From: Planctomycetota bacterium
GTDB taxonomy: Bacteria > Planctomycetota > Planctomycetia > Gemmatales > Gemmataceae
DNA length: 64,000 bases
Direction: 5' to 3'
Assembly (NCBI GenBank): GCA_021781415.1
Contig: JAJXWW010000176.1
Span: forward strand, 1 to 64,000
This document shows positions 48,638 through 64,000 of this stretch, piece by piece. The translations under genes were made by a program, and so were the position numbers. The notes under the pieces are model-generated. The model saw nothing but the letters and a program-made list of their open reading frames with translations. It did no database searches and was not told the origin of the DNA. The number at the start of each line of letters is the position of its first letter. The stretch's first letter is position 1.

Positions 48638-49870
48638 TCATAGGAGACATACGAGCAACGCGAAAAGCAGAAGCGAGATAGCGACGACGGCGATAATCCA
48701 AAGGGGGAATGGTCGCGATCGCTGCTTCGAGAAGTCGCGCGGCGATTCGATTTTCCTTGGGTCGTCGGAGACCAAATCGGCGAACGGCGACGGCGAGTCG
48801 TCGTTCGCCGGCGGCGAGACGATGGGCACGGGGCGGGAGATTGGCTGAGGCAAGAAAGCGGCCAAATCGACGATCAATTCCGCCGGAGTTTGATAGCGCT
48901 CGTCCGGACGCTTGGCCATGAGCTTGCCGACGAGCGCGGCGAGAGGAGCGGGTATTTCCGGACGCAAACTTAGAAGAGGCGCGGCGGTGTCGCACGAGTG
49001 TGCCAGCAACTTGGCCATCGGATCGTCGCCGGAGAACGGCGGCCGGCCGGCAAGCAGATAATAGAACGTGCAGCCGAGACTATAAAGATCGGAGCGGATG
49101 TCGGCGCGGCGCGAGTCGATGGCCTGTTCTGGAGCGATAAAGTCGATGGTTCCCATGACGACGCCCAAGCGCGTCAGGCGCTTTGCTTGCGTCTCTCCTT
49201 CCTCCTCCTCGCGGAGCCGGGCCAGTCCCATGTCGAGTATTTTGACGACGCCGGCTTTGGATCGCATCAGATTGGCCGGCTTGATGTCGCGGTGGACCAT
49301 GCCGTTCTCGTGAATGTGCTGTAACCCCAAAGCAACTTGCCGGATGCAACCGCACGCCTCCAGCACCGGCATCGGGCCGCTCTGTTTCACCAGACGCGAC
49401 AAATCGACTCCTTCGACGTACTCCATCGCAAAAACATTCGTCGCGCCGATCTGTTCGGCGTCGTAGGCGTGAACCACGTTGGGATGCGACAGGCACGCGC
49501 ACGCCTGAATCTCTTGATAAAAACGATGGACAATATCCGATTTGTTGATGCGTTCCTTGCGCAACACCTTGAGGGCGACAATGCGTCCGAGGCGCGTCTC
49601 GCGGGCTTTGAAAACCTGGCCCATGCCTCCTTCGCCGAGCCGTTCGAGGAGCAAATAATGGCCGAGTACCAAGTCGGCGGCACGATCTTTGAAAATGCAA
49701 TTCACTTGATAGGCGGTGAGCCAACCGAGTCGAAGCAGGTCGCGGGCCAGAGCCAAGGCATCGTCGGGACGAGTCGGCAGCGAGCGCTCCACGTCGTCGA
49801 GTTGCTCCGCCTCCAATATGCGGTTGCAGCGCAGGGTCTCGACGAGTCCGCGAGCGGTTGCAATGGCCAT
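48638..49870 (-). CDS. Ser/Thr protein kinase, membrane-anchored
   Basis: A 410-residue kinase. The N-terminal module (about 1-65) ends GWLTAYQVNCIF. The catalytic domain (about 68-330) has GEGGMGQVFKA, catalytic Lys in VALKVL, HRDIKPANL, DMG instead of DFG, and APE (FIAPEQ). A Pro-rich linker leads to a single C-terminal helix (LWIIAVVAISLLLFALLVCLL) with no extracellular domain. It is paralogous over the first 330 residues to the WD40 kinase at 14295. GGAAGA precedes ATG 49870. Confidence 0.93.
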   Translation of the reverse strand: MAIATARGLVETLRCNRILEAEQLDDVERSLPTRPDDALALARDLLRLGWLTAYQVNCIFKDRAADLVLGHYLLLERLGEGGMGQVFKARETRLGRIVALKVLRKERINKSDIVHRFYQEIQACACLSHPNVVHAYDAEQIGATNVFAMEYVEGVDLSRLVKQSGPMPVLEACGCIRQVALGLQHIHENGMVHRDIKPANLMRSKAGVVKILDMGLARLREEEEGETQAKRLTRLGVVMGTIDFIAPEQAIDSRRADIRSDLYSLGCTFYYLLAGRPPFSGDDPMAKLLAHSCDTAAPLLSLRPEIPAPLAALVGKLMAKRPDERYQTPAELIVDLAAFLPQPISRPVPIVSPPANDDSPSPFADLVSDDPRKIESPRDFSKQRSRPFPLWIIAVVAISLLLFALLVCLL

Positions 49871-50086
49871 TCGGTTCTTCCGGCAAGCCGACAAGGGAGC
49901 GACACCTTTCGATAGTATATCGCTGGCAAAGAAGCCGCAAGCCGACCTCCGCGCGACGTATTCGTTGAGACGAACGTCCCTTTGCCCCTTAAAATAAACG
50001 GCACCTTCGCGGGAACTTTCGTTCCTTGCCCTATAGAGAACTGTACGGCGCGACCGTATCCCTTCTTGCACTGAGGAGATGGACCG

Positions 50087-57094: not shown

Positions 57095-57463
57095 CCCCCC
57101 TCGCCCCTGTATTCAGGGGAGAGGGGTCGGGGGTGAGGGGCGAGAATACTCGGAGAAAATCACCCCCCTCACCCCAACCCCTCTCCCCCTGAGTACAGGG
57201 GGAGAGGGGCTTATGCGAACCCCCCCTCGCCCCTGTATTCAGGGGAGAGGGGTCGGGGGTGAGGGGCGAGAATACTCGGAGAAAATCACCCCCCTCACCC
57301 CAACCCCTCTCCCCCTGAGTACAGGGGGAGAGGGGCTTATGCGAACCCCCCCTCGCCCCTGTATTCAGGGGAGAGGGGTCGGGGGTGAGGGGCGAGAATA
57401 CTCGGAGAAAATCACCCCCTCACCCCAACCCCTCTCCCCCTGAGTACAGGGGGAGAGGGGCTT
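57095..57463. repeat. Three tandem copies of a 126-bp GAGAGGGG palindromic repeat
   Basis: Units begin at 57095, 57221 and 57347; the third is one base shorter. Each has two palindromes (CCCTGTATTCAGGGGAGAGG and CCCCCTGAGTACAGGGGGAG) separated by GAATACTCGGAGAAAATCAC. They are related to the elements at 35112 and 47263 but lack their ATTAG ends. The rest of this 811-bp gap (to 57776) holds no gene I can support. Confidence 0.92.
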
Positions 57464-57776: not shown

Positions 57777-59933
57777 ATGGACCGCCAAGCCGAGCCGGCA
57801 GCCTTCGCCAAAGCCTGCGCCTACCTCAACTATCGAAAGACCGCCAAGTGGACGGCCTTGGCGGCGGGGACCGGTACTGGCGTCGTCTACGTTGCCCTCC
57901 TCGTCGTCTTGTGGCTGTTCGTCGACTTGATGGTCTATCGCGGCCGGCTGCCCACCTCCCTCAGCCTCACGCCGTTGCAACAGACGCGGTTTTTTAACGA
58001 ATGGAATGCGCTCGATTCCGACGCGAAGAAAGATCGTTTGGAAGCCATCGAACTCGACGGTGAGAAAGTCCAACAACTTCTATCGATCGACGATCTTGCC
58101 GCCTCGTCGCGCGAAGATCGTCGGACGATCTGGCGCGCGCACGTTGGGCACATCATTGAGGGCCGCATCGGAGTCGGCGCGCTGTCCACGGTCGACGGGA
58201 CCGAAGGCGTCGATTTTACGGCGGATGTCGGCATTACCAGTTTGGTCGTCCGTTCTCATGCGGAAGGACGCATCGTCACGCCGATGTTGGCGGCGGCGGC
58301 GCGCTGGGTTCCGTGGATGCGCAATGCCAACGGCGGCGGCGTCATCTCGCCCTATCTGATCGGCCTACTCCTGAGCGGCATTGGATTGGCGCTGCTCGGC
58401 GCGGTGCTGATGTATCTGATGCGCGAGATGGCGGCGCGGGCGAGCATTGAGGCCGCCACGCGCCTGCGCCGCGCCGTCTATCACCACACGTTTCGCTTGG
58501 GCACGCTGGCCATTCGCGCTCTAGGACCGTCCGAGGCGGTGAGCATGTTCGCACGGCACATTGAGGCCGTCCATGATGCGCTCTACACGCGCCTTACGGT
58601 ATACTACCGTGCGCCGATCAAGTGCGCTTTGTTGATCGCCTTCGCGCTCTTCGTCCAATTTTGGCTGGCGCTGGCGTCCCTCATGTTGGCCATTTTAGTA
58701 TGGTTGGTCGGCGGGCAAGTGGCGGCGTACTTCCGGCGTCAGGGGCGCACGGCCACGCATCAAGCGTCGGAACATTTGACCATCATGCGCGAAAGCCTCA
58801 TGCTCATGCGTCTGGTCAAATGTTACATTATGGAGCCGTTCAACCAGAATCGCGTCGAACGCCAGTTGACGCGCTACACCCGCGTGCAGATGATTCGCTA
58901 TCGAGGCGATGCCATCTATCAGCCGTTGCTGGTGCTGCTCGGTTTGCTGTGCGTGCTGTTGCTGTTGTTCGTGGCCGGCATCCTCGTGTTGTCGGGGCAG
59001 CTGACGGTGGCACAGTTGGCCGCCATGAGTACGGCCCTCGTCAGCCTCTATCGCCCCTTGGAACGCTGGATCGAAGCGCGGCGGCTCATTCGACGCGGCC
59101 GCGATTCCGCCGACAACGTCTTCAAATTTCTCGAACGGCGCGGCGAAGTGGGGCAGGTCGTCGGCGCGGAGTTCTTGCCTCCGCTGGCCAAACAGATCGA
59201 GTTCGACAACGTCACCCTGCGCGAACCGGGCAGCGGGCGATTGCTGCTCGAAGAAGTGTCGCTCGTCATTCCCGCCGGAAAGCGCATCGGCCTGATCGGC
59301 GCGGACGATCTGGAAAAACACGCTCTCGTTTATCTGATACCGCGCTTGCTCGATCCCACCAACGGCGAGATCCGCGTCGATCAACACAATCTCCGCTGGG
59401 TCACGCTCGACTCGCTGCGCGCGCAGATCGGCACGGTGCTGATGCACAACCTCGTCTTCCACGACACGGTGGCCAACAACATCGGCTGCGGCGACAACGC
59501 CTTTACGCTCGGTCAAATCATCGAAGCCGCCAAGGTGGCCCACGCGCACCACTTCATCCAAAAGCTGCCGCAAGGCTACGAGACACCCATCGGCGAGCTG
59601 GGCCATTCGCTGTCGATCAGCGAGCAATTTCGCATCGCCCTCGCCCGCGCGATCTTGCGCGATCCCGCGCTGCTGATTATCGAAGAGCCGGAGGCTGCGT
59701 TCGACGAAGAGACCAAGGCGCTGCTCGACGACACCTGGACGCGCGTTCTGCCGGGGCGCACCGTCGTGTTCTTGCCCCATCGCATCTCGACGATTCGTTC
59801 TTGCGATACGTTGATCCTGTTACACAAAGGCCGCGTCCACGCCACCGGCATCCACAAGGAACTGCTCGCCCAAAACCAGCTGTATCGCCATCTCCATTAC
59901 ATCGAGTTCAACGAAATGGTCGAACAGGTGTAG
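57777..59933 (+). CDS. ABC exporter-like protein with degenerate nucleotide-binding domain
   Basis: A 718-residue half-transporter fold. A first helix pair, a roughly 140-residue extracytoplasmic insert (about 55-190), then the ABC type-1 membrane domain (from about 197) and a C-terminal ATPase-like domain (about 455-710). The ATPase motifs are altered: Walker A reads GADDLEKHA (Lys514 kept, glycines and Ser/Thr lost), the signature is LSISE (612-616) instead of LSGGQ, Walker B is IIEEPEAAFD (E636-E637), and the Q-loop glutamine is absent. The H-loop His668 (PHRIS) and overall fold remain. It may not hydrolyse ATP, or may need an active partner. Next to the CysQ-like gene. Confidence 0.88.
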   Translation: MDRQAEPAAFAKACAYLNYRKTAKWTALAAGTGTGVVYVALLVVLWLFVDLMVYRGRLPTSLSLTPLQQTRFFNEWNALDSDAKKDRLEAIELDGEKVQQLLSIDDLAASSREDRRTIWRAHVGHIIEGRIGVGALSTVDGTEGVDFTADVGITSLVVRSHAEGRIVTPMLAAAARWVPWMRNANGGGVISPYLIGLLLSGIGLALLGAVLMYLMREMAARASIEAATRLRRAVYHHTFRLGTLAIRALGPSEAVSMFARHIEAVHDALYTRLTVYYRAPIKCALLIAFALFVQFWLALASLMLAILVWLVGGQVAAYFRRQGRTATHQASEHLTIMRESLMLMRLVKCYIMEPFNQNRVERQLTRYTRVQMIRYRGDAIYQPLLVLLGLLCVLLLLFVAGILVLSGQLTVAQLAAMSTALVSLYRPLERWIEARRLIRRGRDSADNVFKFLERRGEVGQVVGAEFLPPLAKQIEFDNVTLREPGSGRLLLEEVSLVIPAGKRIGLIGADDLEKHALVYLIPRLLDPTNGEIRVDQHNLRWVTLDSLRAQIGTVLMHNLVFHDTVANNIGCGDNAFTLGQIIEAAKVAHAHHFIQKLPQGYETPIGELGHSLSISEQFRIALARAILRDPALLIIEEPEAAFDEETKALLDDTWTRVLPGRTVVFLPHRISTIRSCDTLILLHKGRVHATGIHKELLAQNQLYRHLHYIEFNEMVEQV

Positions 59934-60021
59934 CGAAATCACCCGGCCTCCGACGCAGACGATTCGCCCTTTGTGGGCGAACCGGCTGCGTTCGTCGCCG
60001 AGGTCGCATCGAAAGGAACGC

Positions 60022-60837
60022 ATGACGCAACCGCGCGAATTACAGGCCGCCTTGGAGGCGGCGCGGCACGCCGAACGAGTCGTTCTCGAAGCCTACACGC
60101 GCTTCCAGGCCATCCCCGACGCGCCCATCGACATTTCCACCGAGGCGGATCGACAGGCCCAAGAAACCATCTTGAGCTATCTCAAAAGCGTTTTTCCTGG
60201 CGATGCGCTGTGCGCCGAAGAACGGACGCCGTCCTTGGAAGGGACGGCGAGCGTCGGTTCGCGCCTCTGGGTCGTCGATCCGATCGACGGAACGCGCGGC
60301 TTCGCCCGCAAGAACGGCGAGTTTTCCGTGATGATCGCTTTCGTCGAAGCAGGCCGACTCGCCGTCGGCGTCGTCGCGGAACCGGCCAAGGGACGCCTCA
60401 CCTATGCGGCGCGCGGCCAAGGTTGTTGGCGGCAAGACGGCGCGGGCGAACCGATCGCTTGCCGCGTCTCGGCCACGAGCGAATTGGCGGCGTCGGCGAT
60501 GGTGCAAAGCCATTCCCGAACTCCCGATGTGCCGTCGCGCATGGCTCAGGCCATCCGTCCGAACCGCGTGGTCGAGACATATTCCGCCGGCGTGAAGCTC
60601 GCGCTGGTGGCGCGCGGCGAAGTCGATCTGTACGTCAACGACTACACGCAATTTCACGACTGGGACATCGCGGCGGGCCACTTGTTAGTGACCGAGGCCG
60701 GCGGTGTTGTGACGGGGCTACACGGCGAAGCCTTGCAATACGGACTGCCGGAAGCCTGGCAACGCTTCGGACTTCTCGGCAGCAACGGTATCGTTCACGC
60801 CGAGGCGCTGAAGAGGCTGGAACACGTTCAACTATAA
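60022..60837 (+). CDS. Inositol-monophosphatase family phosphatase (CysQ-like)
   Basis: A 271-residue Mg2+- and Li+-sensitive-type phosphatase. Metal ligands are in AEE (65-67) and DPIDGT (86-91), with the second signature WDIAAGHLLVTEAGG. The pattern RLWVVDPIDGTRGF fits 3'(2'),5'-bisphosphate nucleotidase (CysQ/HAL2) or histidinol-phosphatase of the same family more than inositol monophosphatase proper. AAAGGA precedes ATG 60022. It converges with ung, overlapping by 6 bp. Confidence 0.9.
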   Translation: MTQPRELQAALEAARHAERVVLEAYTRFQAIPDAPIDISTEADRQAQETILSYLKSVFPGDALCAEERTPSLEGTASVGSRLWVVDPIDGTRGFARKNGEFSVMIAFVEAGRLAVGVVAEPAKGRLTYAARGQGCWRQDGAGEPIACRVSATSELAASAMVQSHSRTPDVPSRMAQAIRPNRVVETYSAGVKLALVARGEVDLYVNDYTQFHDWDIAAGHLLVTEAGGVVTGLHGEALQYGLPEAWQRFGLLGSNGIVHAEALKRLEHVQL

Positions 60838-63293: not shown

Positions 63294-64000
63294 ATGGCCA
63301 CGGTCCTCCGCGAACCGCTCCATCTCTGGCAATTCGGCCGGCGCAAGATCGCCGATGCCGTGGACGATCTCGGCGATCTCTCCGTGTTCGCGCTGCGGAT
63401 CGTCTTCGGCCTACGCCACCGTTCGAGCTATAATACCATCGTTCCCATCTGCCACAGCATCGGCGTGCAAAGCATCCCCGTGGTGATGATTACCGGGGCG
63501 TTCATCGGCATGGTGTTGGCCGTGCAGGCGTACTCCGAGTTTGCCCATCTGGGATTGGCGACGCGATTGGGACAGATTATCAACATCTCGGTAGTGCGCG
63601 AACTCGGGCCGGTTCTTGCCGCCGTCATGTTGGCAGGGCGCGTCGGCAGCGCCATGGCCGCCGAGTTGGCCACCATGCGCATCACCGAACAGATCGATGC
63701 CCTGGCGTGCTTGGGAACCAATCCCATCCATTATCTCGGCGCGCCCCGATTTCTTGCGTGTGTGATGCTCATCCCGTTGTTGACGATCTTGGCGAATTTC
63801 ATGGGCGTTCTGGGCGGCGCGCTCATTTGCATCGACGTATACCACGTCGAAGCCCACTACTACTGGGAGAACACACGCGGATTCGTGGAGATGTGGGATT
63901 TGATGACCGGATTGATTAAGCCGACGTTCTTCGGCGCGGCCATCGCCGTCATCTGCTGCCATCGCGGATTCTACAGCGAAGCGGGAGCCGAAGGCGTGGG
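63294..64000 (+). CDS. mlaE: MlaE-family ABC permease (5' part)
   Basis: The first 235 codons of a YrbE/MlaE permease, running off the window. It should transport phospholipids between outer and inner membrane with MlaF (ATPase) and MlaD (MCE protein), expected just downstream. Conserved blocks: ITGAFIGMVLAVQAY, VVRELGPVLAAVMLAGRVGSAMAAELATM and EQIDALACLGTNP. GGGAG precedes ATG 63294. The N-terminal segment (LHLWQFGRRKIADAVDDLGD) is the usual amphipathic helix. Confidence 0.94.
   Translation, partial: MATVLREPLHLWQFGRRKIADAVDDLGDLSVFALRIVFGLRHRSSYNTIVPICHSIGVQSIPVVMITGAFIGMVLAVQAYSEFAHLGLATRLGQIINISVVRELGPVLAAVMLAGRVGSAMAAELATMRITEQIDALACLGTNPIHYLGAPRFLACVMLIPLLTILANFMGVLGGALICIDVYHVEAHYYWENTRGFVEMWDLMTGLIKPTFFGAAIAVICCHRGFYSEAGAEGV

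Follow-up and report, generated by a model that had tools for sequence, protein, structure and literature searches.

A planctomycete protein family with the type IV ABC-exporter fold and without ATP-binding and signature motifs

We identified a family of full-length proteins that have the type IV ABC-exporter fold and lack ATP-binding and signature motifs, that were found in one class of Planctomycetota only, and that are under purifying selection. That this family, here called pseudo-ABC, exists is well supported, while its mechanism is something that we infer from the properties described below. One member is encoded within a 64,000-nucleotide stretch of planctomycete DNA, referred to here in its entirety as the window.

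An exporter fold with altered ATPase motifs

The pseudo-ABC gene of the window (57777..59933, + strand, as are all features of the gene given below) begins with ATG and encodes 718 amino acids without an internal stop. Its product matches two Pfam families above their cut-offs, PF00664 (aa 193–425) and PF00005 (aa 491–638), and these matches, a structural model and matches in the PDB all indicate a single chain in which an ABC membrane domain is followed by a nucleotide-binding domain (NBD), the arrangement that defines a type IV ABC exporter. The AlphaFold model, computed from a 41-row alignment (mean pLDDT 85.5, pTM 0.77), contains the long exporter helices with the six-helix exporter fold kept, an NBD, and an all-helical insert; its nearest solved structures are MsbA, ABCB10 and TM287/288. 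Against TIGR02203, the model for the MsbA lipid A exporter, the protein scores 286.7 bits, below the cut-off of 602.

A large extracytoplasmic insert near the N-terminus, anticipated in the original prediction from the sequence of the window, appears in the AlphaFold model as a helical domain between TM1 and TM2 (approximately aa 56–189; 57942..58343). It is poorly conserved, and a sequence search against the PDB found no relative of it. The remainder of the transmembrane domain (TMD) extends over approximately aa 190–452 (58344..59132), as delimited by PF00664 and the model, and the NBD fold, delimited by PF00005 and the model, over approximately aa 473–711 (59193..59909).

The same prediction had listed the departures from a functional ATPase within these 718 intact codons, and the sequence and family alignment agree with it at each position. 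Walker A is degenerate, reading GADDLEKHA (G508–A516; 59298..59324); the Q-loop glutamine is replaced by methionine (M556; 59442..59444); the signature is degenerate, reading LSISE (L612–E616; 59610..59624); and Walker B reads LLIIEE (E636–E637; 59670..59687), having glutamate in place of aspartate and keeping the catalytic glutamate. The H-loop histidine is kept (H668; 59778..59780), as is a lysine, K514, at the Walker A lysine position. The loss of the Q-loop glutamine is a feature of the window genus and some other lineages rather than of the family.

Motif loss across the family

We compared these motifs in two samples. The first, drawn from 84,980 species genomes and seeded with the peptide patterns [ED]AAKxAHAH and [QK][FY]RIALARA, consists of 47 named members together with 37 canonical exporters that come from several phyla. 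All 47 members are from Planctomycetota (Gemmataceae, Isosphaeraceae, Planctomycetaceae and unclassified lineages). Conservation within the seed patterns, for example at F/Y618, is in part a product of ascertainment in this set; neither pattern covers the positions of Walker A, Walker B or SGG. The second sample was obtained by searching 59 related genomes with the whole protein and no motif seeding, and overlaps the first in some genomes.

Within a single alignment, Walker A (GxxxxGK[S/T]) was found in none of the 47 homologues and in all 37 canonical exporters, and the signature SGG in none of the 47 as opposed to 36 of the 37. The Walker B aspartate is likewise absent from all 47 homologues, being glutamate in 45, and present in all 37 canonical proteins. 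At least one acidic residue occupies P-loop positions 509–515 in every homologue but in only two of the 37 canonical exporters. In place of the lost motifs the family has a consensus of its own (D510 in 42/47, E636 in 45/47, P638 in 45/47), and it invariably retains the X-loop glycine and the LARA arginine (47/47 each), while the H-loop histidine is variable (21/47). Since the departures in Walker A, the signature and Walker B are found in all 47 homologues and in no aligned canonical exporter, they can be attributed neither to chance nor to decay.

The second sample gave the same picture. An orthologue was detected in 50 of the 59 genomes, only canonical paralogues being found in the other nine, and the motifs were degenerate in every orthologue whose NBD was read, whereas paralogous exporters recovered by the same search were normal. 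Orthologues with a normal Walker A and LSGGQ, which would have made the window gene a decaying copy, were sought and not found.

Some elements of the ATP site do persist, and one might therefore propose that pseudo-ABC is an ATP-sensing gate that still binds the nucleotide without hydrolysing it. The residues K514, H668 and E637 kept in the window protein may be compatible with residual nucleotide binding, and across the family the lysine is retained in 23 of 47 homologues, the Q-loop glutamine in 28, the catalytic glutamate in all 47 and the D-loop aspartate in 45. However, no homologue retains the P-loop glycines that follow G508, and the positions expected to meet phosphate carry on average 2.3 acidic residues; the A-loop aromatic residue is missing from the window protein and from most homologues; and the lysine is not conserved. 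Judged on these residues, a gate of this kind seems rather unlikely, and pseudo-ABC probably neither binds nor hydrolyses ATP usefully.

Conservation is unevenly distributed along the chain. Mean pairwise identity among homologues is 51.5% in the NBD, 31% in the TMD and 22% in the insert; the NBDs of the canonical exporters share 50%, a value that is not like-for-like because these controls span many phyla. The NBD is thus more strongly constrained than either the TMD or the insert, which suggests that what counts in the protein is its cytoplasmic part, as a surface for docking or regulation.

Selection, origin and taxonomic range

Substitution rates, estimated by the Nei–Gojobori method, indicate purifying selection. 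The window gene and its closest orthologue (dS 0.25) give a dN/dS of 0.099 over the whole gene and of 0.020 within the NBD; for a second pair (dS 0.72) the values are 0.080 and 0.034, respectively, wider pairs being near saturation. In a quick IQ-TREE phylogeny of 71 rows, the root of which is not known, a single branch with SH-aLRT support of 100 separates the pseudo-ABC proteins from the canonical group, and five fast-evolving pseudo-ABC members lie on long branches. As the tree allows one origin, a single loss of the motifs in a common ancestor is the simplest reading.

These results also bear on whether the window gene might be a decaying, pseudogene-like copy. The motifs are indeed lost in the window genome, and five lineages have an extremely divergent homologue. 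But the reading frames are intact, the losses are shared by all orthologues, new consensus residues have arisen, and dN/dS is about 0.10 in the window's own lineage; given the orthologues, the selection and the tree, we reject decay as highly improbable. The original proposal that the altered motifs are not the result of random decay is thus strongly supported.

Among 148 planctomycete genomes, members scoring at least 543 bits were found solely within the window's class, in 13 of its 16 genomes including that of the window, and the best matches outside the class score no more than 408 bits, a separation made by score. Carriers include the cultured planctomycetes Singulisphaera and Paludisphaera (L078, L080). 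A gap defined by score would miss very diverged members. In four same-family relatives (L145, L147, L148 and L149), pseudo-ABC has diverged to 21–30% identity, while the neighbouring permease, DXS and NAD kinase genes have not.

Genomic neighbourhood and candidate partners

The original prediction had suggested that the protein could be the inactive half of a heterodimer. The canonical half would then be the product of a gene at another locus. Exporters often form heterodimers in which one site is degenerate (PMC7756269), and the window's genome contains many canonical exporters. We found, however, no canonical half-exporter recurring near pseudo-ABC in 61 loci (1.06 Mb). Furthermore, known degenerate-site exporters retain one intact composite site (PMC7756269), whereas the loss of both Walker A and the signature would leave a pseudo-ABC homodimer without a complete ATP site and would place a broken element in each site of a heterodimer with a canonical half. 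Weakened on both counts, the heterodimer proposal now appears improbable.

What does recur is a permease. A gene for an ABC-2 permease (PF12679) lies immediately upstream, on the same strand, in 35 of 48 pseudo-ABC loci, and pseudo-ABC directly follows this permease in 32 of the 50 genomes in which pseudo-ABC occurs. In the other 18 the two genes are apart, some of these cases being short contigs. In the window's genome the permease is on another contig (C56), away from pseudo-ABC, so this lead could not be seen from the window. The predicted fold of the permease is NosY-like (mean pLDDT 72.7, with the first 89 residues disordered). It thus resembles NosY of the NosDFY system in fold and Pfam family; unlike NosY, it has no adjacent NosF-type ATPase, its neighbour being a pseudo-ABC exporter, and a search of its neighbourhoods for an ATPase found none that recurs. 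The permease is an orphan in this sense. It has a conserved cytoplasmic loop, EEIEGKTAITLLSKPINRRQF, and the cytoplasmic loop of ABC-2 permeases is their usual site of contact with an NBD; for this reason it is the best candidate partner of pseudo-ABC. In four genomes with very diverged members (G017, G021, G024 and G031), an intact exporter-like reading frame of 620–705 aa still follows the permease.

These findings fall short of proving a partnership. All 59 related genomes carry the permease, and about nine of them lack pseudo-ABC; the genes are separated in the window's clade; and a comparison of relative rates did not support close co-evolution of the two proteins, the permease not being fast where pseudo-ABC is very fast. 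Such a difference in rates could be accommodated if pseudo-ABC were a standalone ATP-independent conduit or lipid scramblase and the permease merely a chromosomal neighbour, as could its conservation in the window genus even when apart from the permease, and its retained six-helix exporter fold. Yet gene order with the permease is maintained across the class, the most diverged members included, and an NBD with 51% mean identity, far above the 31% of the TMD, would be odd for a pure conduit; we consider this explanation unlikely.

Several other genes accompany the permease. A small acylphosphatase gene often precedes it (L072–L092 and other loci), and in loci of the Gemmataceae type DXS and NAD kinase genes are found farther upstream. 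In other planctomycete classes, relatives of the NosY-like permease at eight loci (L159–L164, L166 and L167) are also without an adjacent ATPase, and these orphan relatives suggest that an ATPase-less permease is ancient. Most of the relatives from other classes precede a metallophosphoesterase-like gene, and some follow a ParB-like gene, giving the order ParB, permease, phosphoesterase.

Just downstream of pseudo-ABC in the window is a gene of the inositol-monophosphatase family (59971..60837, + strand; PF00459; likely start near 60022), for which the best NCBIfam match is CysQ, below its cut-off. Neighbourhood clusters place such a gene downstream of pseudo-ABC in many other Gemmataceae-type loci. 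Just upstream, between pseudo-ABC and an opposite-strand WD40-repeat gene, is a 126-bp tandem repeat (57095–57463; 2.9 copies, 99% match). Elsewhere the window contains a Ser/Thr protein kinase gene with a hydrophobic C-terminal segment (48638–50071; PF00069) and, truncated where the window ends, the beginning of a gene for an MlaE-family lipid ABC permease (63294–64000; TIGR00056 above cut-off).

Discussion

Pseudo-ABC resembles MsbA and other type IV (ABCB-like) exporters in its TMD–NBD fold, its PF00664 and PF00005 domains, its X-loop, its D-loop and its ALARA helix, and differs from them in lacking Walker A, the signature and the Walker B aspartate, and in its long TM1–TM2 insert. With TM287/288, TmrAB, PatAB, TAP and MsRv1273c/72c it shares the exporter fold and non-canonical ATP-site residues; in those systems one composite site is intact, while pseudo-ABC loses both contributions and has no partner half encoded nearby. 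Pdr5, in which NBS1 is degenerate, is comparable in that the loss is spread over Walker A, Walker B, the signature and the H-loop, but Pdr5 is an ATPase whose single chain also carries a canonical second site (PMC7756269). Our literature survey, which covered mostly open-access papers, turned up exporters in which one site is degenerate and the other works, and no account of the pseudo-ABC family.

As no complete ATP site would form in either type of dimer, we infer an ATP-independent role. Our preferred interpretation, tentative and with somewhat less than even confidence, is that pseudo-ABC is a scaffold, regulator or passive conduit, and that its most likely partner is the orphan NosY-like permease, whose gene immediately precedes it in most genomes. 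A non-transport regulator, the other role named in the original prediction, may still apply. An exporter-like dimer would be held together by the retained TMD–NBD coupling surfaces (X-loop, helical subdomain and D-loop) and would act in the membrane, possibly serving the permease, whose conserved cytoplasmic loop could provide the contact. The extracytoplasmic insert would then serve in sensing or binding, in a form that varies between lineages. A more specific version, in which pseudo-ABC is a non-ATPase, NBD-like docking partner and the two proteins form a class-wide two-permease complex without an ATPase of its own, is conceivable and, in our estimate, unlikely; if true, it would represent an "ABC transporter" operating without ATP at its own sites.

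The annotation "ABC transporter ATP-binding protein/permease" is misleading for pseudo-ABC genes. Degenerate ATP sites in ABC exporters have so far been known mainly alongside one remaining working site, and exporters kept throughout a class without either contribution to an ATP site would separate, in a testable manner, a scaffold role from ATP hydrolysis.
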